From a virus, in IMG/VR virus record IMGVR_UViG_3300042525_001082, positions 1-57,491 of that record: DNA of 57,491 bases. One strand, 5' to 3'. This document shows positions 11,977-40,137 of the stretch, one piece after another. The notes beneath the pieces are model-generated. The model ran no database searches and was not told the DNA's origin. It worked only from the letters and a program-made list of their open reading frames with translations. A program made the translations under genes and the position numbers. Within the stretch, counting starts at the first letter, position 1, and every line of letters begins with the position of its first letter.

Positions 11977-12585
11977 ATGACAAACACCACCCCTTTATTT
12001 GTAGCTTTTGAAGGAATTGATGGCTCTGGAAAAACAGAGCAACTTGGACAAGTGGCAAAACATCTGACGGAACATTCGGGCTTGAAGGTTTTAAACACCA
12101 GGGAACCTTGGGGGGATGATGCACGGATTAGGATAAAAAACACAGATTTACCCCCATTGGATCAGATCCAGTTGATTGCCGAGGATAGAAAAGCTCATTG
12201 CAATTGGCTTAGAGAAGTTTGGGGCGACTATGACCTGATCTTTTGTGACCGATTCACAGCCTCCACGTTAGCCTACCAGGGCTATGGAGAAGGGCTTGAG
12301 ATAGAAGGCTTGATAAGGGTAAATGAAACGGCCACACAGGGCTTAAAACCCGACCTCGTTCTATTGTTAGACTGCCCCGTAAACGTCTCGGCCAATCGGC
12401 TGAATAGATCCCTTGATAAAATAGAAAAAAATATCCATTTTCTAAACAGAGTGCGGTTCGGGTACTTGGCTCTCGCCCATCGGTTTAATTATCAAATCAT
12501 TGATGCAAGCAAAAACAAGGGCAATGTTTTTACCGATGTCCTAATATCCTTATCAAAGCTAATGAAGTCGTCATGGGGTGACTAA
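11977..12585 (+). CDS. tmk: Thymidylate kinase
   Basis: The product (202 aa from ATG 11977) phosphorylates dTMP to dTDP for DNA synthesis. It has the P-loop FEGIDGSGKT at residues 11-20, a TREPWG segment, the DR motif in FCDRFTAS with the following LAYQGYGEG, and a DLVLLLDCP strand. These are the hallmarks of Tmk. An upstream ATG at 11941 would add 12 hydrophobic residues, but the family usually starts just before the P-loop. Phages carry tmk to raise dTTP supply. A copy of the C-terminal third follows directly at 12594-12833. Confidence 0.9.
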   Translation: MTNTTPLFVAFEGIDGSGKTEQLGQVAKHLTEHSGLKVLNTREPWGDDARIRIKNTDLPPLDQIQLIAEDRKAHCNWLREVWGDYDLIFCDRFTASTLAYQGYGEGLEIEGLIRVNETATQGLKPDLVLLLDCPVNVSANRLNRSLDKIEKNIHFLNRVRFGYLALAHRFNYQIIDASKNKGNVFTDVLISLSKLMKSSWGD

Positions 12586-32149: not shown

Positions 32150-35100
32150 ATGATTATTCAAAGACATCGAGACGAGTTCCTGGCTTCAGCTATTCATCCC
32201 CATATTATCGACTTAAACTTTGAGTCACTCAAGGGACAGGATGCTCTTGAAGCCGTATTATACGGGGAGATGGAAGCTCTAGGAAAAAAATCACCCCACT
32301 CGCTTCAGTACACCACAACCCCCCTCAAGAGGCTTTTTGAACGCTTCAAGCACCTAGAGGACGGGGGGTGGAGTTTTAGGGGCGTTGATCCTCTCAACTG
32401 TTCCCAATATATGAAATGGGGATGTTTTAAAGCCGATAGACCTCGCTATAGTTTCAGCGACCTATTGAAGATGATTAAATACGAGCATCCGGGGAAAGTG
32501 CCTACACGAGCATTTTTCGTGGTGCCATCCTGGGAGATTGGGGTAAAAATAGCCATCAAAGCGGGTGAGCAGTATATTGAAAGCTACAAGTCCCGATGTC
32601 CGCAAGGGGACTTTGATTGGAGTGAGGGCGATCGCTACTTTTGGGAGTGGGCAATTGAGATCAACTTGCCAATCACGATCACCGAGGGGGCTAAGAAAGC
32701 AGCGTGCTTGATATCGGCGGGATACGCTTGCATCGGATTACCTGGGATTACTGGGGGAGTGCGGACTAGCCGAGAGGACGGTAACGGATTTAAGGAGAAG
32801 TGCGCTCCTTACCTGATTCCTGAGTTAGAGATTTTTGTGACGACAGGGCGACGGGTGAATATTGTTTTTGACCATGAAACAAAAATCAAAACCATTCGCA
32901 ACGTCCAAAGGGAGATAAATAAATTAGGTGAGCTTTTTCAGAAGGACAAACGGGATGTCCGTGTGATCAGTTTTCCTGGGCCAGAGAAGGGAGTTGATGA
33001 TTTTATCATGGCGCATGGAGAAGAAGAATTTGATCTTCTATATAACAAGGCTCCTGATTATCGGATTTATCAATTCAACAGAGGGTGGCAACTAACCAAG
33101 ACTCCGACATTGACCCTAAACGTTCGATATTTGGGAGATTTACCCACTCCTACTACTGGGTCTGTTTTTATCTACTCAGGCATGGGAACAGGGAAAACTA
33201 AACGGCTAGAACCTATCGCCCAGGATGCTATTGCTAGTGGGCGGAGGGTTTTGGTGATTACCCACAGGGTTGAACTTGGGCGGGCAATCTGCAATGCGGT
33301 GGGTGTGCCTTGGGTTGAGGAGTGCAAGGGAAGCGTTGAAGGGAAAACCCTGGGGTATGGTTTGTGCGTAGATAGTTTGCACCCCCTGAGCCAAGCCAGT
33401 TTTGACCCAGAGGCTTGGGAGGGTGCTGCGGTGATCATAGATGAAGTTGAGCAAGTCCTTTGGCATTTGTTCAATAGTTCAACCTGTGCCGAAAAACGGA
33501 CAGCAATCCTTTCAAGTCTGGAAACGTTACTGAAAAGCGTTCTAACAACGGGAGGATTATTAATTGCCCAAGATGCCGACCTTTCAAATTACTCAATTGA
33601 CTACCTTACGGAATTGTCGGGGATTGAAAATCTGGAACCCTACATTGTCGTCAATAAATACAAAGGAAACGGGCGCAAGGTTCATTTCTATAGCCATAAA
33701 GTCGAAGCACTCTATAAAGAGATAGACAAGCAAATTCGTGAAGGCAAGCGAATGATAATCGTGGAGGATAGCCAAAAAGTTAAAGGCAAGTTCTCAGCAA
33801 TCAATATGGAATCACACATCCGCAAGAATCATCCCCACGTCCGTGTTATTCGGATTGACTCGGAGACTGTATCAAATCCAAATCACCCGGCTTTTTGCTG
33901 TGCAAAAAACATTGACACGGTGATTGAATCGGGTCAATATGACGTTGTGATTGCTTCCCCCACAATCGGGACAGGTGTATCTATTGACCTCAAAGGCTAT
34001 TTTCACAGCGTGTTTGGGCTTTTCAAGGGAGCGATCGCCACAAACGATGTCCTCCAGATGATGTCGCGGCTTCGGGACTTGGCGGCTGAATGGCATTTAT
34101 GGTGCGCTCAGTACGGGTGCAGCAAGGTTGGGAATGGGTCATCTGGCGCGCACGTCCTCCTTGAATCTCAAGATCGGGTGACTCGCAAGCATATCGAAAT
34201 CTTAGAGAAATACGACAGGGCAGGATTTGATATCGACACCCAAACCGACACACGGCACACAAGTGCGTGGGCTAAGTATGCGGCACGAATCAACGCAGGG
34301 CAGTGGAAATACCGAGAAACGGTTCTTTACCTATTGAAACAGGAAGGGCATGATGTTTCCAATTCGGATGATTCTCAAATGCGATTTGACGAGGATAGAT
34401 TAGCTTCTGAAGAAGCGATCGCCCGACAAATGGGGGATTTAGAGAAAGCCGACGATATTCAATACGAACGGGGACGGATTGAAGTCATCACGGACGAGCT
34501 TGACAGTAAGATTCAGGTAATCAAAGCCGAGGCGGAGGAGATTCGCACCCAGAATCGGGTGGCGAACGCCGAGGTAATCACGAACGCGGAGGATATTTCG
34601 TTCTCTAAATACGAGAAGCTGCAAGACAAGAAAGCTAAAACCCCAGAAGAACTGGCGGAGCAGCAAAAATACTACCTGAAGGACACATATAAAATAGATG
34701 TCACGCCAGAGCTTGTCTTAAAGGACGAGGACGGTTGGCTAAAACAGCTACGATTGCACTATTTCTATATGAATCCTGAGCAAGTTCATGATCGGGATGC
34801 CAATCACATCAAAAATGCGGTACAAAACGGGGATGGGCAAGTCCACCTGCCGGACATCAAACTTTATAGTGCCTGTGTTGAAATTCTCAAGTTGATGGAA
34901 CTGGATCGATTCCTGAACGGAGAGGAATTTACTAATGAATCCGAATTGATCCAAAAACTAGGCAAAATCTTCAAGGAACAGGGGCGAGAGATTCGGGAAT
35001 ATTTTAAGGTAGGGCCGACAGGCTTGACCCCGATTGCTCAGATCAACCGATTTTTCAAAGATACTATTGGACTAAGAATGTCTGGGCGGCAAATCCGTGA

Positions 35101-35722
35101 CGAGGAAGGGAATAGAACAAGAGCTTATTCCTTCAAAGGCTTTGAGGATGGACGTTCTGTGGTTTTTGAAGCCTGGGATAAAAATGTAGCCCAATATACC
35201 AATAACGAGATAATGGCTGTCACACCAAAACATAATAGAAGATTAATACAAAACACTGACACCACTAATAAAATTCAGTGTGATCAAATTCAGTGTGATC
35301 ATGGAGAAGAAGGAACACCCTTTCCAGTAGATATAAAGCGGGGGGAAGAAGCCCAGCAAGTAGCGATTTCATTGACCGAGCCAGAAGAAGCTCAAAACAC
35401 TCCCAAAGATTGGCAAAATCAGGGGAGTGCGGTGGGTTCCGGTACTTTGGTAGAGGCGGTGTCGAATAGTTGGAAGGGTGTTGTGCGGCTGGTTAAGTCG
35501 GTCTTCCCTGAATGTTGGGTAGCTAAGTATGAAGTCAGCTTCCTAAAACGAAACCTCTTGCTAGAAACAGCAGGGAAGGCATTTACAATCGACTCACCCG
35601 CCGCACAATGGGTTCATAACGCATTAGACCCCGATGGTGGTGCATGGGCTTTCCAGGGCTACATAGAGGGCAGTACGCAGATGTACACAATCCCTCTGGG
35701 ATGCCTGGATTTCAATCCATAA
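32150..35722 (+). CDS. CyRepA1-like plasmid replication protein (DUF3854 plus helicase-like part, 1190 aa)
   Basis: The N-terminal third holds a DUF3854/Toprim-like part: ITITEGAKKAACLISAGYAC near residues 174-193 and a VFDHETK acidic strand. A superfamily-2-like helicase follows: YSGMGTGKTK near 341-350 (Walker A), AAVIIDEVEQ near 427-436 (Walker B), ASPTIGTGVSIDL near 602-614, and MMSRLRD near 637. This order matches the cyanobacterial plasmid initiator CyRepA1. A long helical middle and a variable tail follow. The stop codon lies inside the first CRISPR repeat, and two tandem copies of ATTCAGTGTGATC are inside the gene near 35275. It is the best evidence that the element replicates as a plasmid. 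Confidence 0.8.
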   Translation: MIIQRHRDEFLASAIHPHIIDLNFESLKGQDALEAVLYGEMEALGKKSPHSLQYTTTPLKRLFERFKHLEDGGWSFRGVDPLNCSQYMKWGCFKADRPRYSFSDLLKMIKYEHPGKVPTRAFFVVPSWEIGVKIAIKAGEQYIESYKSRCPQGDFDWSEGDRYFWEWAIEINLPITITEGAKKAACLISAGYACIGLPGITGGVRTSREDGNGFKEKCAPYLIPELEIFVTTGRRVNIVFDHETKIKTIRNVQREINKLGELFQKDKRDVRVISFPGPEKGVDDFIMAHGEEEFDLLYNKAPDYRIYQFNRGWQLTKTPTLTLNVRYLGDLPTPTTGSVFIYSGMGTGKTKRLEPIAQDAIASGRRVLVITHRVELGRAICNAVGVPWVEECKGSVEGKTLGYGLCVDSLHPLSQASFDPEAWEGAAVIIDEVEQVLWHLFNSSTCAEKRTAILSSLETLLKSVLTTGGLLIAQDADLSNYSIDYLTELSGIENLEPYIVVNKYKGNGRKVHFYSHKVEALYKEIDKQIREGKRMIIVEDSQKVKGKFSAINMESHIRKNHPHVRVIRIDSETVSNPNHPAFCCAKNIDTVIESGQYDVVIASPTIGTGVSIDLKGYFHSVFGLFKGAIATNDVLQMMSRLRDLAAEWHLWCAQYGCSKVGNGSSGAHVLLESQDRVTRKHIEILEKYDRAGFDIDTQTDTRHTSAWAKYAARINAGQWKYRETVLYLLKQEGHDVSNSDDSQMRFDEDRLASEEAIARQMGDLEKADDIQYERGRIEVITDELDSKIQVIKAEAEEIRTQNRVANAEVITNAEDISFSKYEKLQDKKAKTPEELAEQQKYYLKDTYKIDVTPELVLKDEDGWLKQLRLHYFYMNPEQVHDRDANHIKNAVQNGDGQVHLPDIKLYSACVEILKLMELDRFLNGEEFTNESELIQKLGKIFKEQGREIREYFKVGPTGLTPIAQINRFFKDTIGLRMSGRQIRDEEGNRTRAYSFKGFEDGRSVVFEAWDKNVAQYTNNEIMAVTPKHNRRLIQNTDTTNKIQCDQIQCDHGEEGTPFPVDIKRGEEAQQVAISLTEPEEAQNTPKDWQNQGSAVGSGTLVEAVSNSWKGVVRLVKSVFPECWVAKYEVSFLKRNLLLETAGKAFTIDSPAAQWVHNALDPDGGAWAFQGYIEGSTQMYTIPLGCLDFNP
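35274..35304 (+). repeat. Tandem AAATTCAGTGTGATC motif inside the replication gene
   Basis: Two adjacent 15-bp copies code IQCDQIQCD. The core ATTCAGTGTGA is the reverse complement of the iterated motif before tmk (11792-11851). Replication proteins often have their iterons within or near their gene, so this may be an origin or autoregulation site. Confidence 0.5.
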
Positions 35723-36188
35723 AATAGGCAATCGTCTATTGCGGGGTAGCTTGTTCAGAGGGATTGATCGCACTCTATTCGTTTCAATCCATAAAATAGG
35801 CAATCGTCTATTGCGGATAAAATCGCATATCAAAACCCTCCCAAACATTGCATGTTTCAATCCATAAAATAGGCAATCGTCTATTGCGGGAGCAACCGCG
35901 CCATTGCACTGTTTTTGTGAACTATGTTTCAATCCATAAAATAGGCAATCGTCTATTGCGGGAACGATGGGGAAAACTTCGGCGGGTAATTGCTAACCAA
36001 AGTTTCAATCCATAAAATAGGCAATCGTCTATTGCGGGCCCAAGCTCAAATTCTTGGGGGGTATATTGACTATCAGAGGTTTCAATCCATAAAATAGGCA
36101 ATCGTCTATTGCGGGTTCTAGCTCCCCTAGATTAACTGTAGTCAGGTTTTCCGTTTCAATCCATAAAATAGGCAATCGTCTATTGCGG
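35709..36188 (-). CRISPR. CRISPR array, seven 36-nt repeats and six spacers
   Basis: Repeats start at 35709, 35781, 35854, 35926, 36002, 36079 and 36153. On the plus strand the unit starts GTTTCAATCC and ends CTATTGCGG; it is otherwise identical except that the first base of the copy at 35709 is A. Six of seven copies are followed by a G. Spacers are 36, 37, 36, 40, 41 and 38 nt and all differ. I favour minus-strand transcription: the repeat then ends ATTGAAAC, the degenerate copy lies at the far end, and the array follows cas12 in the same direction. Pairing of GCAAT/ATTGC near the end of the unit would also allow plus-strand reading. Confidence 0.95.
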
Positions 36189-36204
36189 GAGCTTAATCCG
36201 CAAT
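36182..36204. repeat. Inverted repeat formed by the last repeat and the cas12 gap
   Basis: ATTGCGG at the end of the seventh repeat pairs with CCGCAAT at 36198-36204, giving a 7-bp stem over 9 bases. It sits in the 20-nt gap before the cas12 stop and may guide processing or mark the leader end of the array. Confidence 0.5.
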
Positions 36205-36208
36205 TGTT

Positions 36209-37885
36209 TCAGGCGTTTCTATCGAAATCACCTAAGCTCATTTGATTTATTATAGCATGAGTTTTGGTGGTTTCGGCAACTAAAAAATCGTGAACCCCGT
36301 TTTTAAACAAATTATCTGGAATCGTTATGGTGTCTGACTTTTTGGTTTTTTTCTTGGTTGCCTTTTTAGAAGAGCTAGGGGTTGCCGAATTTTTATTAAT
36401 CAGGAATTTATACCAGAAATTATCGGACAATTCCACACCTTGATTGATTGCCATTTGAGCTAAACCTTTTAACTTAATGTTCTGTCCTGAGTTGACATCA
36501 CGAGCAACGGTATAACCACAATTAGAGCATTTGTGAGTGCGTTGAGATAGCTTTTTCTTCTCTTGATGTCCACACTTCGCACAACATAAAGTAGTTCCCC
36601 AATTATCAACCCGAATCACTAATTTTCCGTGTTCCTTTGCTTTGGTTTCTAATAAATCAATAGCTTGACCAATAGCTACATCACTCCCTGTTCTGTTACT
36701 TCCTCGTTTGCGTTTTTGACTATTTTTATCGTAGATAACTGTACCATTTTCGGCAACCACTGGATTTCCTTCTGTGTCTAATTTTGCCTTGGCTTTAGCT
36801 TTTCGGTAGACGTTGGCGGGTTTGTAATCCTCAACAAAAATCACGTCAAACCAATTGATTAAATTGGTAGAATGCCAGTGATTGAATGATCGGCGGTGAC
36901 GGGCGATTTTCTCATGAAGTTTAGCAATTTTATTATTGAGTTTCTCCCAATTCTTAGTTTTCCCCTCGTTCATTCGATACTTGCGAGATAATTGTTGCTG
37001 CATTTTCCTTAGACGTTTTAGCGATCGCTTTAAAGGTTGTGCAGCCTCAATAGTATGACCATTATCCAATGCCATAACAAACTGATGTCCGGGGTCAATT
37101 CCACAACATAACCCTGTCTTCTTGGCTTGTTTGACAGGGACGGACGCAGTTAATTGTATATACCACCCCGACGCTTTTTTGCAAATTTTCATCGGGTTAA
37201 AATCGCAACCATACCACCGTTTATCAAATCCAATTACTTCGATATAACCCAATTTTGGAATATTGATCTTACTGTCCTTAACGCCTAGATCCTTAGCGTT
37301 GTAATGGATTAAAGTCATTACCTTATCTTTAGCTGTTTTGAAACGTGGACGACTGTGGCGACCCGCTAAAAATCCCTCCCAAGCCTTTGATAGTTCATGC
37401 GCTACACCTTGAATAAATTTTGCCGGGCAATCGGTGAAATTAACTTTTCGCTCCTCACCTCTAACTAAATAAGTCACAATCCGATCCTTGTGGTGCTGAT
37501 GTCCAAATACCTTTAGAAACCCGTATAGTACCGACTTTTTAGAATCCAGTGAGTCAATAATAGGACTATTTTCATCAATGGCGACAGGATGGATTAACCC
37601 CTTTTTCTTCTCGACTCGCTCAATCCCCATCTTCCAATCTGGGATCTCAATTCGTACCCATTGCTTGAGCTTGCGGTCGTATCGTTGCAGGGGAGTTGCA
37701 GGGACGTTAGACTTTGACAGTTTATCGTAAGGGTTCCACTCGTTAAATTCCTCTATCAGTCCTAACGAGCGATTCCAAACCCACTTACAAACTAGCATCC
37801 AATCTTCTAGGGTTCGCTCTTGTTCTGAAGATAAAATGAGTTTAAACTCCTTTGTTCGCACATTTTCGCTAAAATTAGAAGACAT
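36209..37885 (-). CDS. cas12: TnpB-like Cas12 effector nuclease (type V, V-U2-like, 558 aa)
   Basis: The C-terminal half is a RuvC nuclease: CGIDPGHQF (Asp264), FVEDYKP (Glu352), and ARDVNSGQNI (Asp463). A zinc site, Cys435/Cys438 and Cys453/Cys456, lies between the last two. N-terminal features follow the TnpB/Cas12 plan: EQERTLEDWMLVCKWVWNRS helix, then HSRPRFKTAKDK near 177-187 and a basic linker. Intact D/E/D residues argue against Cas12k, which lacks them. It is longer than usual TnpB (about 400 aa). It lies beside a CRISPR array and a predicted tracrRNA. I place it near the V-U2 group known from cyanobacteria, on recall and not on alignment. A transposon TnpB is the less likely choice. 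Confidence 0.8.
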   Translation of the reverse strand: MSSNFSENVRTKEFKLILSSEQERTLEDWMLVCKWVWNRSLGLIEEFNEWNPYDKLSKSNVPATPLQRYDRKLKQWVRIEIPDWKMGIERVEKKKGLIHPVAIDENSPIIDSLDSKKSVLYGFLKVFGHQHHKDRIVTYLVRGEERKVNFTDCPAKFIQGVAHELSKAWEGFLAGRHSRPRFKTAKDKVMTLIHYNAKDLGVKDSKINIPKLGYIEVIGFDKRWYGCDFNPMKICKKASGWYIQLTASVPVKQAKKTGLCCGIDPGHQFVMALDNGHTIEAAQPLKRSLKRLRKMQQQLSRKYRMNEGKTKNWEKLNNKIAKLHEKIARHRRSFNHWHSTNLINWFDVIFVEDYKPANVYRKAKAKAKLDTEGNPVVAENGTVIYDKNSQKRKRGSNRTGSDVAIGQAIDLLETKAKEHGKLVIRVDNWGTTLCCAKCGHQEKKKLSQRTHKCSNCGYTVARDVNSGQNIKLKGLAQMAINQGVELSDNFWYKFLINKNSATPSSSKKATKKKTKKSDTITIPDNLFKNGVHDFLVAETTKTHAIINQMSLGDFDRNA

Positions 37886-37913
37886 ACCTATTTAAGAAAT
37901 TGAAATGTATATA

Positions 37914-37942
37914 TTGACATTTCCATTATATACAACTATAAT
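37914..37942 (+). promoter_or_regulatory. Perfect sigma-70 promoter of the predicted tracrRNA
   Basis: TTGACA (37914-37919) and TATAAT (37937-37942) match consensus at all twelve positions and are exactly 17 bases apart. The likely start is near 37949. It is divergent from cas12, whose ATG is at 37885. Confidence 0.85.
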
Positions 37943-37944
37943 GG
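37923..37944. promoter_or_regulatory. Operator-like palindrome on the tracrRNA promoter
   Basis: CCATTATA and TATAATGG form a perfect 8-bp inverted repeat with 6 bases between. The right arm contains the -10 box of the tracrRNA promoter, and the left arm holds a TATAAT on the opposite strand toward cas12. It could be bound by a repressor that couples both. Confidence 0.55.
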
Positions 37945-37948
37945 AATC

Positions 37949-38097
37949 ACCGACGTTTAGATCGGCAAGCCAAAAGCTGCCCTTGGAGCCGAAAGGATTA
38001 ACGATTAGGCGATGAAGAGGGAATATTCTCTAACCAGATATGGTTAGCAATTTTAAAAATAGGTAATCAACTTAAAAAGGGGCTCCGGCCCCTTTTT
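37949..38097 (+). ncRNA. Predicted tracrRNA of the Cas12 system (about 150 nt)
   Basis: The RNA begins about 7 bases after the TATAAT. Hairpins follow in order: CCGA/UCGG; GC-AGC/GCU-GC; CCUU/AAGG; and a 7-bp CUAACCA/UGGUUAG stem with a GAUA loop (38030-38047). The segment AAAATAGGTAATC at 38056-38068 pairs with the minus-strand repeat over 13 positions, 12 Watson-Crick and one G-U. A second weak pairing is GTTTAGATC (37955-37963) with the repeat end. The RNA ends at AAAAAGGGGC-UCCG-GCCCCUUUUU, a UNCG-loop terminator. No open frame fits the region. Confidence 0.78.
38074..38097 (+). terminator. UNCG-loop terminator of the tracrRNA
   Basis: AAAAAGGGGC (38074-38083) pairs with GCCCCTTTTT (38088-38097) around a TCCG loop, closed by C-G as in the very stable UNCG family, and ends in a T run. 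Confidence 0.9.
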
Positions 38098-38170
38098 AGT
38101 GGACTCCATCTATTGTCCTGATATTGTCCTGCCCACAAAATCAGAATCAAAAAGGACATCGCAACACCTC

Positions 38171-38255
38171 AAAAAATATTTTCAGAAAACGCTTGACATA
38201 TTCTGGATATCTGTACTATATTAATTGTAAGGATAAAACACAAGCAAAGGACAAA
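38171..38255 (+). repeat. Copy 1 of an 85-bp exact direct repeat with promoter
   Basis: It is identical base for base to 39098-39182. It holds TTGACA (38193-38198) and TATATT (38217-38222) at 18-base spacing and ends in a GGACAAA stretch before the start codon of the next gene. Confidence 0.95.
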
Positions 38256-38260
38256 ACGAC

Positions 38261-38803
38261 ATGGCTATTCAATCACTGACAAAAAGATACTTACAACTAA
38301 AATCTTTAATGTCCAAGTTCAAAAGCGTCAAGTCACTAATTAGAAAGTGGGCTTTTGAGTTAACTCAGTTAGAAGGGAAAATCGAAGATTTCTACAAAGG
38401 AATAACAACCAAGCCCGTCAAACAAGTCGAGAAAGTTGCAGAAACAATCACAATAAATGTTGGCTCACAAGTATTGAAATTCCCCGTAAAAAATGAGGGT
38501 GATAGCGAAAAATTCAAAATAACAATCAAAAGTATTCAAAAATTAATTGCTAACGCCACAGCTAAGTGGAGCAGTGAATGGGGTGACGAATGGGCGTTTG
38601 ATGGTCGCGTATCTTACGGGGTTATGATGGGTTTACAAGAGATGATGAAAGTTTATAAAAACACATCTGGCAACGGCGGACTAAAGTTAGAAGATATGTC
38701 TCATACATACATGATTAATTGGCGGTTTCATGGAAACTTTGTTGGTCAAGCTAATATGGTCTCATTAAGTTGCAGTATCCTGATTAACAATCGCAAACCC
38801 TAG
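38261..38803 (+). CDS. Hypothetical protein (180 aa), paralogue of 14311-14823
   Basis: The N-terminal 45 residues share SLIRKWAFELTQLEG with the protein at 14311. The C-terminal part has DEWAFDGRVSYGVMMGL and is soluble. It is driven by the duplicated promoter block and ended by a GTCACC/GGTGAC hairpin (38815-38837). Function is unknown. Confidence 0.6.
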   Translation: MAIQSLTKRYLQLKSLMSKFKSVKSLIRKWAFELTQLEGKIEDFYKGITTKPVKQVEKVAETITINVGSQVLKFPVKNEGDSEKFKITIKSIQKLIANATAKWSSEWGDEWAFDGRVSYGVMMGLQEMMKVYKNTSGNGGLKLEDMSHTYMINWRFHGNFVGQANMVSLSCSILINNRKP

Positions 38804-38814
38804 CCAATAAACAA

Positions 38815-38837
38815 GTCACCGGATTTGATCTGGTGAC
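38815..38837 (+). terminator. Hairpin after the 180-aa gene
   Basis: GTCACC and GGTGAC flank an ATTTGATC loop with extra GAT/ATC pairing. The same flanking sequence (AGCCAATAAACAAG) and hairpin recur at 39886-39918. Confidence 0.6.
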
Positions 38838-38868
38838 TGTAAGAATAAAACACAACCCTATTATAACC

Positions 38869-39099
38869 ATGCAATGCCCATCCTGCAACACCGCAATGTG
38901 GCTAGACGGATTTAAGAGAGGTCGTCAAGCCTACAAATGCCCTGAATGCCACAAACAGCTAACAGATCCCGCACAACAGGGAAAAGCAGGGCGACCCAGT
39001 GGCACATCAAAAGGTCGGACTTGCACCCTCTGTGACAAACCCCATTACGCCGGGGGATTGTGTCAAATGCACTACAGGAGGGAGAAACGGAAGAAATAA
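38869..39099 (+). CDS. Double zinc-ribbon protein (76 aa)
   Basis: I chose ATG 38869 (MQCPSCNTAMWLDGFKRGRQ). It has a CPSC/CPEC zinc ribbon with AYKCPECHKQ and then a second site (CTLC...GGLCQMHY). The same two-part layout is seen in the protein at 43288, so both belong to a small family carried by this element. Its stop touches the second 85-bp repeat. Probably nucleic-acid binding. Confidence 0.65.
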   Translation: MQCPSCNTAMWLDGFKRGRQAYKCPECHKQLTDPAQQGKAGRPSGTSKGRTCTLCDKPHYAGGLCQMHYRREKRKK

Positions 39100-39182
39100 A
39101 AAATATTTTCAGAAAACGCTTGACATATTCTGGATATCTGTACTATATTAATTGTAAGGATAAAACACAAGCAAAGGACAAA
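39098..39182 (+). repeat. Copy 2 of the 85-bp exact direct repeat with promoter
   Basis: It is identical to 38171-38255, with TTGACA at 39120-39125 and TATATT at 39144-39149. It starts inside the stop of the preceding gene. Confidence 0.95.
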
Positions 39183-39193
39183 GGACAAAGACA

Positions 39194-39877
39194 ATGACAA
39201 CCGCATCACCCGCAAGAGAATTAAAGAAAGCACTCAAAAAAGAGTTCCCCGGCATTAAATTCACGGTTAACACCACAAGATATAGTGTCGATGTCAGATG
39301 GGAGATAGAGCTTAAAACAGAAGCTACAGTCGCAAAGGTTGATGCAATAACAAGTAAATACGATACAGTTCAGATTTCTGGTAGCACGGTTTATTTTAAT
39401 GTTCGATATGAAGGGTACGGGATCAACCTATATCCCACATATACAAAAGAAAGAGAAGAATGGGCGATGAACCTAACAAAAGCCAATAATAGCGAGATGG
39501 TTTGGAATGGAGCGAGAGGAACTTTTGACAACTTCTTAGGAAAAGAAGACCGTGCCACAACAAGACAATACTACGAATACCTTAAAAACGGGGTTGAGCT
39601 TAAAGTGGAATCTACCGTGACCGACACAGACGAAGCAAAAACACCCGACAAAACGGAATCCACCTCAGTATCAGTCGAATCAACAACGGAGTCCAACCTA
39701 GTTCAATTCTCAACATTCAAAAAAGCCACACCCGCACCGACACCCCAACAAAACCCCGATGACGTTTTCTTCTCTGAAATCTACCAAGCCTGGGTTAAAA
39801 AGTTGATAAATAATGGGGAGTTTAATAAAATCAAGTCCTTTGAGGATTGGTACGCGATCGCTATTCAGGTTCTGTAA
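39194..39877 (+). CDS. Protein with LPD29-like N-terminal domain (227 aa)
   Basis: The N-terminal 100 residues (ARELKKALKKEFPGIKFTVN, YSVDVRWEIEL, VAKVDAITSKYD) resemble the LPD29 domain found in large polyvalent phage and plasmid proteins. A Thr/Ser/Glu-rich linker (residues 135-175) and a helical end follow. LPD29 has no firm function. It sits in a promoter-gene-hairpin cassette. Confidence 0.6.
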   Translation: MTTASPARELKKALKKEFPGIKFTVNTTRYSVDVRWEIELKTEATVAKVDAITSKYDTVQISGSTVYFNVRYEGYGINLYPTYTKEREEWAMNLTKANNSEMVWNGARGTFDNFLGKEDRATTRQYYEYLKNGVELKVESTVTDTDEAKTPDKTESTSVSVESTTESNLVQFSTFKKATPAPTPQQNPDDVFFSEIYQAWVKKLINNGEFNKIKSFEDWYAIAIQVL

Positions 39878-39899
39878 ATCAACCAGCCAATAAACAAGC

Positions 39900-39918
39900 C
39901 ACCGGATCAAATCCGGTG
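39900..39918 (+). terminator. Hairpin after the LPD29-like gene
   Basis: CACCGGAT and ATCCGGTG pair perfectly around CAA. With its upstream flank it copies the 38815 hairpin. Confidence 0.65.
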
Positions 39919-39957
39919 ACTGCGACAAATACACCATATTAAATAGGGACTAAAACA

Positions 39958-40137
39958 ATGATCAAAGTTGAAGACATTAAAGAATATCAAATCAGTAACT
40001 TAAACTCACAGTTACCAATCCTAAGAGTGAGAACAATTTACGGGAAAACAGAAATCTACACAGGGAATCGAGCTATTAAAAACCTAAAAATAATCAAAGA
40101 GGTTTTTGACAGAATCGAGCAGGAATTAAACCATTAA
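39958..40137 (+). CDS. Small hypothetical protein (59 aa)
   Basis: The product starts MIKVEDIKEYQISNLNSQLP and ends with KEVFDRIEQELNH. It looks like one beta-sheet and a C-terminal helix. Family not recognised. A strong terminator follows. Confidence 0.5.
   Translation: MIKVEDIKEYQISNLNSQLPILRVRTIYGKTEIYTGNRAIKNLKIIKEVFDRIEQELNH

Follow-up and report, generated by a model that had tools for sequence, protein, structure and literature searches.

A predicted tracrRNA gene divergent from a phage-encoded C2c8-like (V-U2) cas12 gene

Among the small Cas12 nucleases, Cas12f (type V-F) and the cyanobacterial Cas12k (type V-K) use a trans-activating CRISPR RNA (tracrRNA). The omegaRNA of TnpB is located at the 3' end of its gene, and TranC, described in 2025 work, is reportedly a TnpB-like effector whose guide is split into a tracrRNA and a CRISPR RNA (crRNA). 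Here, we analyzed an RNA-like block beside the C2c8-like (V-U2) cas12 gene of a virus, the IMG/VR record IMGVR_UViG_3300042525_001082 (positions 1–57,491); the whole stretch of 57,491 nucleotides (nt) is called the window, and coordinates are positions in it. For the V-U2 system of cyanophage vB_AphaS-CL131, a tracrRNA was reported to be absent and a gene-regulatory role was proposed (PMC6293099), while the 2025 classification covers V-U only under TnpB-like and candidate systems, with no tracrRNA named for V-U2 (PMC12669027). Our literature search, with subscription literature outside it, returned no description of a V-U2 tracrRNA or of a V-U2 mechanism. Analysis of the block and its relatives indicated that it is very likely the gene of a tracrRNA serving the neighbouring phage-encoded V-U2 Cas12. 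It would probably be the first for V-U2, from which a tracrRNA was said to be absent, and its divergent layout is unusual.

The cas12 gene (36209–37885, minus strand) encodes a protein of 558 amino acids (aa) with the RuvC residues D264, E352, and D463 and a zinc ribbon. Its best PADLOC family is Cas12u2 (3e-107, residues 10–513), and its best NCBIfam family is C2c8, at 305 bits and so below the curated cut-off of 350; the PADLOC Cas12f models also match, more weakly than Cas12u2, and NCBIfam Cas12f2 falls far below its cut-off. On this evidence, the product appears to be a diverged V-U2 (C2c8) member. A structure model of modest confidence (predicted local distance difference test [pLDDT] of 67), used for fold class only, matches Cas12p, TnpB, LaTranC, and Cas12f. 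As in V-U2 systems, the array adjoins cas12 without adaptation genes in the scanned open reading frames (ORFs); the scan of window ORFs, which left aside those below 100 aa and some larger ones, found neither Cas1/Cas2 nor a Tn7-type domain.

Like the CL131 system, the locus is phage-borne and consists of a single C2c8 gene followed by a short array without Cas1/Cas2; unlike in the window, where the anti-repeat belongs to a divergent gene with a separate promoter, that of CL131 lies at the cas12 3' end, and the two proteins are 33% identical. The window system resembles TranC (LaTranC, PDB 9jfo and 9jfq) in the modelled fold of its effector and in the co-folded split RNA pair, but its effector belongs to a different lineage, its RNA is upstream and divergent, and descent from an omegaRNA is only conjectured. 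With TnpB (ISDra2 and ISFba1; omegaRNA/reRNA), it shares the effector fold and the RuvC and zinc-ribbon motifs, whereas it possesses a CRISPR array and a separate RNA; neither TnpA nor transposon ends were noticed, no search being aimed at them. Its repeat and RNA differ from those of Cas12f, the profile match to which is weaker than that to Cas12u2. Comparison with Cas12k and its CRISPR-associated transposon, in which an inactivated RuvC is accompanied by tnsB, tnsC, and tniQ, revealed an intact RuvC triad, no Tn7-like domain in the scanned ORFs, and an RNA placed upstream and divergently; with a C2c8-like effector, the locus is therefore not a V-K one. An earlier note, made from the letters of this DNA, had set the locus against Cas12k. 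The divergent layout that it stressed is a real peculiarity of this clade, but Cas12k was not the fitting comparison, the effector being C2c8-like (V-U2).

The predicted RNA gene and its conservation

The block opens with a predicted tracrRNA promoter, TTGACA-N17-TATAAT (37914–37942, plus strand), with TTGACA at 37914–37919, a 17-nt spacer, and TATAAT at 37937–37942. The earlier note had called it perfect, and it is indeed the sole 12/12 promoter match within 35000–40000. A predicted tracrRNA of about 149 nt with a start near 37949 (37949–38097, plus strand) follows, in agreement with the unit of about 150 nt proposed earlier, and it ends at 38097 in an intrinsic terminator (38074–38097, plus strand) with the C(UCCG)G loop already recognized then, composed of GGGGC (38079–38083), the UCCG loop, GCCCC (38088–38092), and T5 (38093–38097). 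This terminator was not listed by a simple terminator scan, probably because the A-tract ahead of the stem also pairs with the T-run. Within the RNA, a 7-bp hairpin, CTAACCA-GATA-TGGTTAG (38030–38047, plus strand), stands directly 5' of the anti-repeat, the segment complementary to the CRISPR repeat. The promoter region also contains a perfect 10-bp inverted repeat, TTCCATTATA-tacaac-TATAATGGAA (37921–37946, no strand), which is incompletely kept in the related contigs L013 and L018. Through this inverted repeat, the minus strand also has a TATAAT, which faces cas12, so that the RNA gene and cas12 may share a bidirectional promoter. The window RNA folded alone had a z of -2.1, and Rfam gave no family reaching the gathering threshold in the window and no informative weak match in the relatives.

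A scan of viral contigs identified 19 close relatives with several repeat types, 18 of which have contig extending upstream of cas12. The earlier note had proposed looking for the same block beside homologous cas12 genes, and the divergent RNA block is kept beside cas12 in all 18; it also occurs in PaV-LD, an isolated phage of the bloom-forming cyanobacterium Planktothrix. Across the aligned relatives, TTGACA is invariant, the -10-like hexamer is kept, and the 5' scaffold is almost invariant; the sequence beyond the terminator varies between groups of relatives. Comparison of L018 with the window revealed 84% identity in the RNA block and 76% in the cas12 DNA. The RNA helices showed two-sided changes at 8 of the 31 proposed pairs, with 99.3% of cells paired (93% for shuffled and 35–59% for slid controls). 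This signal sits in the terminator, with 5 such pairs, and in the hairpin ahead of the anti-repeat, in which 3 of the 7 pairs carry compensatory changes and 100% are paired across the relatives.

Predicted pairing with the repeat in the window and in other V-U2 loci

The anti-repeat, CAATTTTAAAAATAGGTAATC (38048–38068, plus strand), faces CAATCCATAAAATAGGCAATC of the repeat with 16 Watson-Crick pairs, 3 G-U pairs, and 2 mismatches over 21 positions, which is the best ungapped pairing over the whole RNA. In whole-RNA searches, a pairing as good as this one occurred with 0.05% of the shuffled repeats and with 0.1% of the shuffled RNAs. The earlier note had described a 13-nt segment, AAAATAGGTAATC at 38056–38068, identical to the plus-strand repeat at 12 of 13 positions, with a C>T change that gives G-U with the minus-strand crRNA; this core stands, but the pairing segment is longer than was thought, at 21 nt. 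The repeat of L018 (GTTTCAATTCCTGATAGGCATTAAAAGGAATTTCAAG) is very unlike that of the window, and the homologous RNA site in L018 is CAATTAATGATAGGCA, which pairs with its own CAATTCCTGATAGGCA. The L018 RNA scored 26 with its own repeat and 11–18 with other repeats, and the window RNA scored 31 with its own repeat and 17 with that of L018. In L013 and L015, the repeat/anti-repeat pairing is longer by three positions. What gives the pairing weight is that it lies within a conserved RNA and co-varies with the repeat: in the compared sequences, the anti-repeat is complementary to the repeat and tracks it between relatives.

All transitions between repeat and anti-repeat are C>T or A>G. Such changes give G-U pairs only when the crRNA runs in the same direction as cas12 and the tracrRNA in the divergent one, and the strands were assigned on this basis; the reverse assignment for the window (tracrRNA on the minus and crRNA on the plus strand) is contradicted by the G-U polarity. 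Co-folding of the RNA with the repeat, a check suggested in the earlier note, gave the hairpin followed by the repeat:anti-repeat helix with a small internal loop in all four lineages (window, L013, L015, and L018). In each of them, the duplex ends 4 nt (AAAC) before the spacer, which the crRNA repeat end ...GGATTGAAAC adjoins. The free-energy differences (ddG) of the co-folds were -13.8, -17.9, -16.9, and -14.0 for the window, L013, L015, and L018, and these values were reached by 1, 0, 0, and 0 of 100 shuffled crRNAs, respectively.

A whole-locus search of CL131 and its relatives L047, L051, and L052 revealed an anti-repeat of 17–30 nt that lies within the cas12 3' end or immediately beyond it, ahead of the array. 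Relative to the shuffled-repeat maximum, it lies far above in L047 and L052, slightly above in L051, and equal by score in CL131, where it forms the strongest duplex in the locus (-36.5 versus -25.8 kcal/mol for the next). On the cas12 strand of these CL131-type loci, the anti-repeat directly follows a 6-bp hairpin with the loop TGAATAT, the stem of which is GGGAGA/TCTCCC in CL131 and ATCACC/GGTGAT in L047, so that the sequence is exchanged and the pairing kept. Co-folding gave the hairpin and a duplex ending 4 nt before the spacer, as in the window. The G-U polarity in these loci is mixed, and the pairing of the antisense strand is somewhat stronger in some of them; only the sense strand gives the geometry of the window, and the repeat ends agree. 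In Microcystis-type loci, the repeat can pair with a CCTAATAAGGC-like stretch of the cas12 tail, with mixed evidence. One anti-repeat match in L066, inside the gene, is slightly above a small null, L210 and L212 gave no anti-repeat above the null, and a candidate in L213 was rejected, its match resting on the GCGATCGC palindrome.

These findings suggest, short of proof, that the CL131-type RNA sits at the place of TnpB's omegaRNA and that the RNA of Planktothrix phages has been relocated and is transcribed on its own. A wider scheme is tentative, and we lean slightly against holding it: V-U2 systems would be split-omegaRNA CRISPR nucleases, with the tracrRNA still at the cas12 3' end in the CL131 type, whereas in Planktothrix phages it would have become a separate divergent gene with a promoter and a terminator of its own, and phages would use these systems against plasmids and each other, even against the cas12 3' end of a rival.

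Alternative explanations and proposed mechanism

An unlikely alternative, yet the one that survives best, is that the block encodes a structured phage small RNA that titrates or regulates the crRNA or tunes cas12, as a decoy or as a repressor like the type II long-form tracrRNA, and that is dispensable for interference. With a promoter and a terminator, the block is an independent small RNA gene; it starts only about 64 nt from the cas12 start, with the inverted repeat spanning both possible -10 elements, and related phages hold solitary repeats that may act as decoys. The RNA is nevertheless always found beside cas12, and its promoter decays upon cas12 loss. PaV-LD (L193 3021–3403; HQ683709 ~68795–69177) keeps the RNA (194 bits) and two repeats, whereas cas12 is gone except for codons 3–26, and comparison with L186 revealed that about 28 nt including the -35 box of the RNA are missing, apparently through deletion between short direct repeats. 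The joint loss of the RNA promoter and cas12, although a single case, fits an RNA that would be useless without Cas12. Recurrence of the hairpin-plus-duplex geometry at the spacer in four lineages and in another V-U2 branch is likewise what a guide-RNA part predicts.

Several points weigh against a tracrRNA. The case is built from sequence, comparison, and folding, and only about 4–5 independent repeat/anti-repeat pairs are available because the relatives are close kin; the pairing test cannot separate the repeats of the window, L013, and L015, which are too similar. Only weak, short matches to the window-clade RNA model occur in other V-U2 loci and in 390 cyanobacterial genomes. In a blind search of several kilobases around cas12, the window pairing, which is AT-rich, scored 32, below the shuffled-repeat maximum of about 35, and taken alone it is unexceptional over such a distance. 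Matches of this size thus arise by chance within several kilobases, as they would if the small RNA had another purpose and its resemblance to the repeat were accidental. Within the RNA, however, shuffles rarely attain the pairing (0.05–0.1%), and it follows the repeat change in L018 and extends with the L013 and L015 repeats, which makes such an accident very improbable. That the block codes for a short peptide or acts only as DNA, as an operator or a replication signal would, is hardly credible: a 36-aa ORF, the only one, overlaps the 5' part and the 10-bp inverted repeat lies at the promoter, but small indels between relatives break all frames, and two-sided changes preserve the helices and the terminator.

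The tracrRNA reading, first put forward in the earlier note, is thus supported at the sequence level by a conserved, structured RNA bounded by a promoter and a terminator and carrying a repeat-tracking anti-repeat. In the proposed mechanism, transcription of the RNA would start at its own promoter, run divergently from cas12, and stop at the intrinsic terminator, as the signals present predict. The anti-repeat would pair with each pre-crRNA repeat, stack on the preceding hairpin, and leave 4 nt before the spacer, as co-variation and co-folding suggest, with processing perhaps by host RNase III. Cas12 may bind the 5' scaffold and the duplex like a split omegaRNA, in keeping with its TnpB/LaTranC/Cas12f-like fold. 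Judging from four protospacers, the complex may bind or cut DNA beside a 5' GTY-like motif (Y, C or T) in plasmids and perhaps other phages, which would be competitors for the same cyanobacterium. With a concrete tracrRNA, a candidate 5' GTY motif, and natural targets, the V-U2 system can be put to a direct test. It is a possible intermediate between the TnpB omegaRNA and a free tracrRNA, and it suggests that a phage of a bloom-forming cyanobacterium carries a mini-CRISPR directed against plasmids and rival phages.

The array, its targets, and neighbouring features

The CRISPR array (35709–36188, minus strand) lies just past the cas12 stop and comprises 7 repeats of 36 nt and 6 spacers, with the crRNA read in the cas12 direction, a strand assigned from the G-U polarity. 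Two spacers have matches in Planktothrix agardhii plasmids. The one at 36115–36152 (minus strand) is 97% identical over 37 nt to a plasmid-borne CyRepA1 replication gene, where the 5' flank is GTC. The one at 35817–35853 (minus strand) shows 88.6% identity over 35 nt to five of these plasmids; in the two whose flanks were read, GTT stands on the 5' side. A spacer of a sibling array matches another P. agardhii plasmid with the 5' flank GTT. Further plasmid spacer searches gave one extra protospacer, and exact scans of viral contigs for three spacers returned at most the sibling array. The four protospacers read with their flanks share 5'-GTY, a motif chosen after inspection of these few cases; as a candidate, it fits type V as well as the strand assigned to the crRNA. 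In a Microcystis-type V-U2 locus, a spacer of L067 matches 35/36 positions of L052 5447–5482, which covers the cas12 tail and anti-repeat of a V-U2 phage contig (5' GTC), as if the system of one phage targeted that of another.

The first 25 kb of the window share about 84.5% identity with PaV-LD over 28% of the stretch, and genes for head decoration, ribonucleotide reductase, and thymidylate kinase are present; by sequence, the window is a Planktothrix phage resembling PaV-LD. Because 2 of the 6 window spacers match P. agardhii plasmids, the host is very probably Planktothrix. The outermost repeat (35709–35722) overlaps the 3' end of a 1190-aa CyRepA1-type replication gene (32150–35722), the stop codon of which lies inside this repeat. 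On the other side of the RNA gene, an exact 85-bp direct repeat (38171–38255 and 39098–39182) with a TTGACA-18-TATATT promoter precedes two small genes.

Among the C2c8 proteins, the CL131- and Microcystis-type C termini (L047, L051, L052, and L061) read QLTLW or QLTIWDLL, reminiscent of a sliding-clamp-binding motif, and this terminus is missing from the window protein. The Chroococcidiopsis plasmids L024 and L025 carry C2c8 genes without an array; the protein of L024, the one translated, lacks a zinc ribbon, and its RuvC motif is degenerate, so that it looks derelict or repurposed. Repeats also occur outside arrays. In L018, a lone exact repeat copy (12120–12156) lies next to a tRNA-like stretch, some 4 kb away from the array, and a degenerate copy lies at about 12264. 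The Microcystis phages MaMV-CH01, DL01, DL02, and DH01 carry one solitary Microcystis-type V-U2 repeat (L218 1504–1540), and such solitary repeats in Microcystis phages are possible RNA anti-CRISPR-like elements. MaMV-CH02 (L219 1497–1609) carries a two-repeat mini-array, the sole spacer of which resembles an inverted copy of its own leader promoter.
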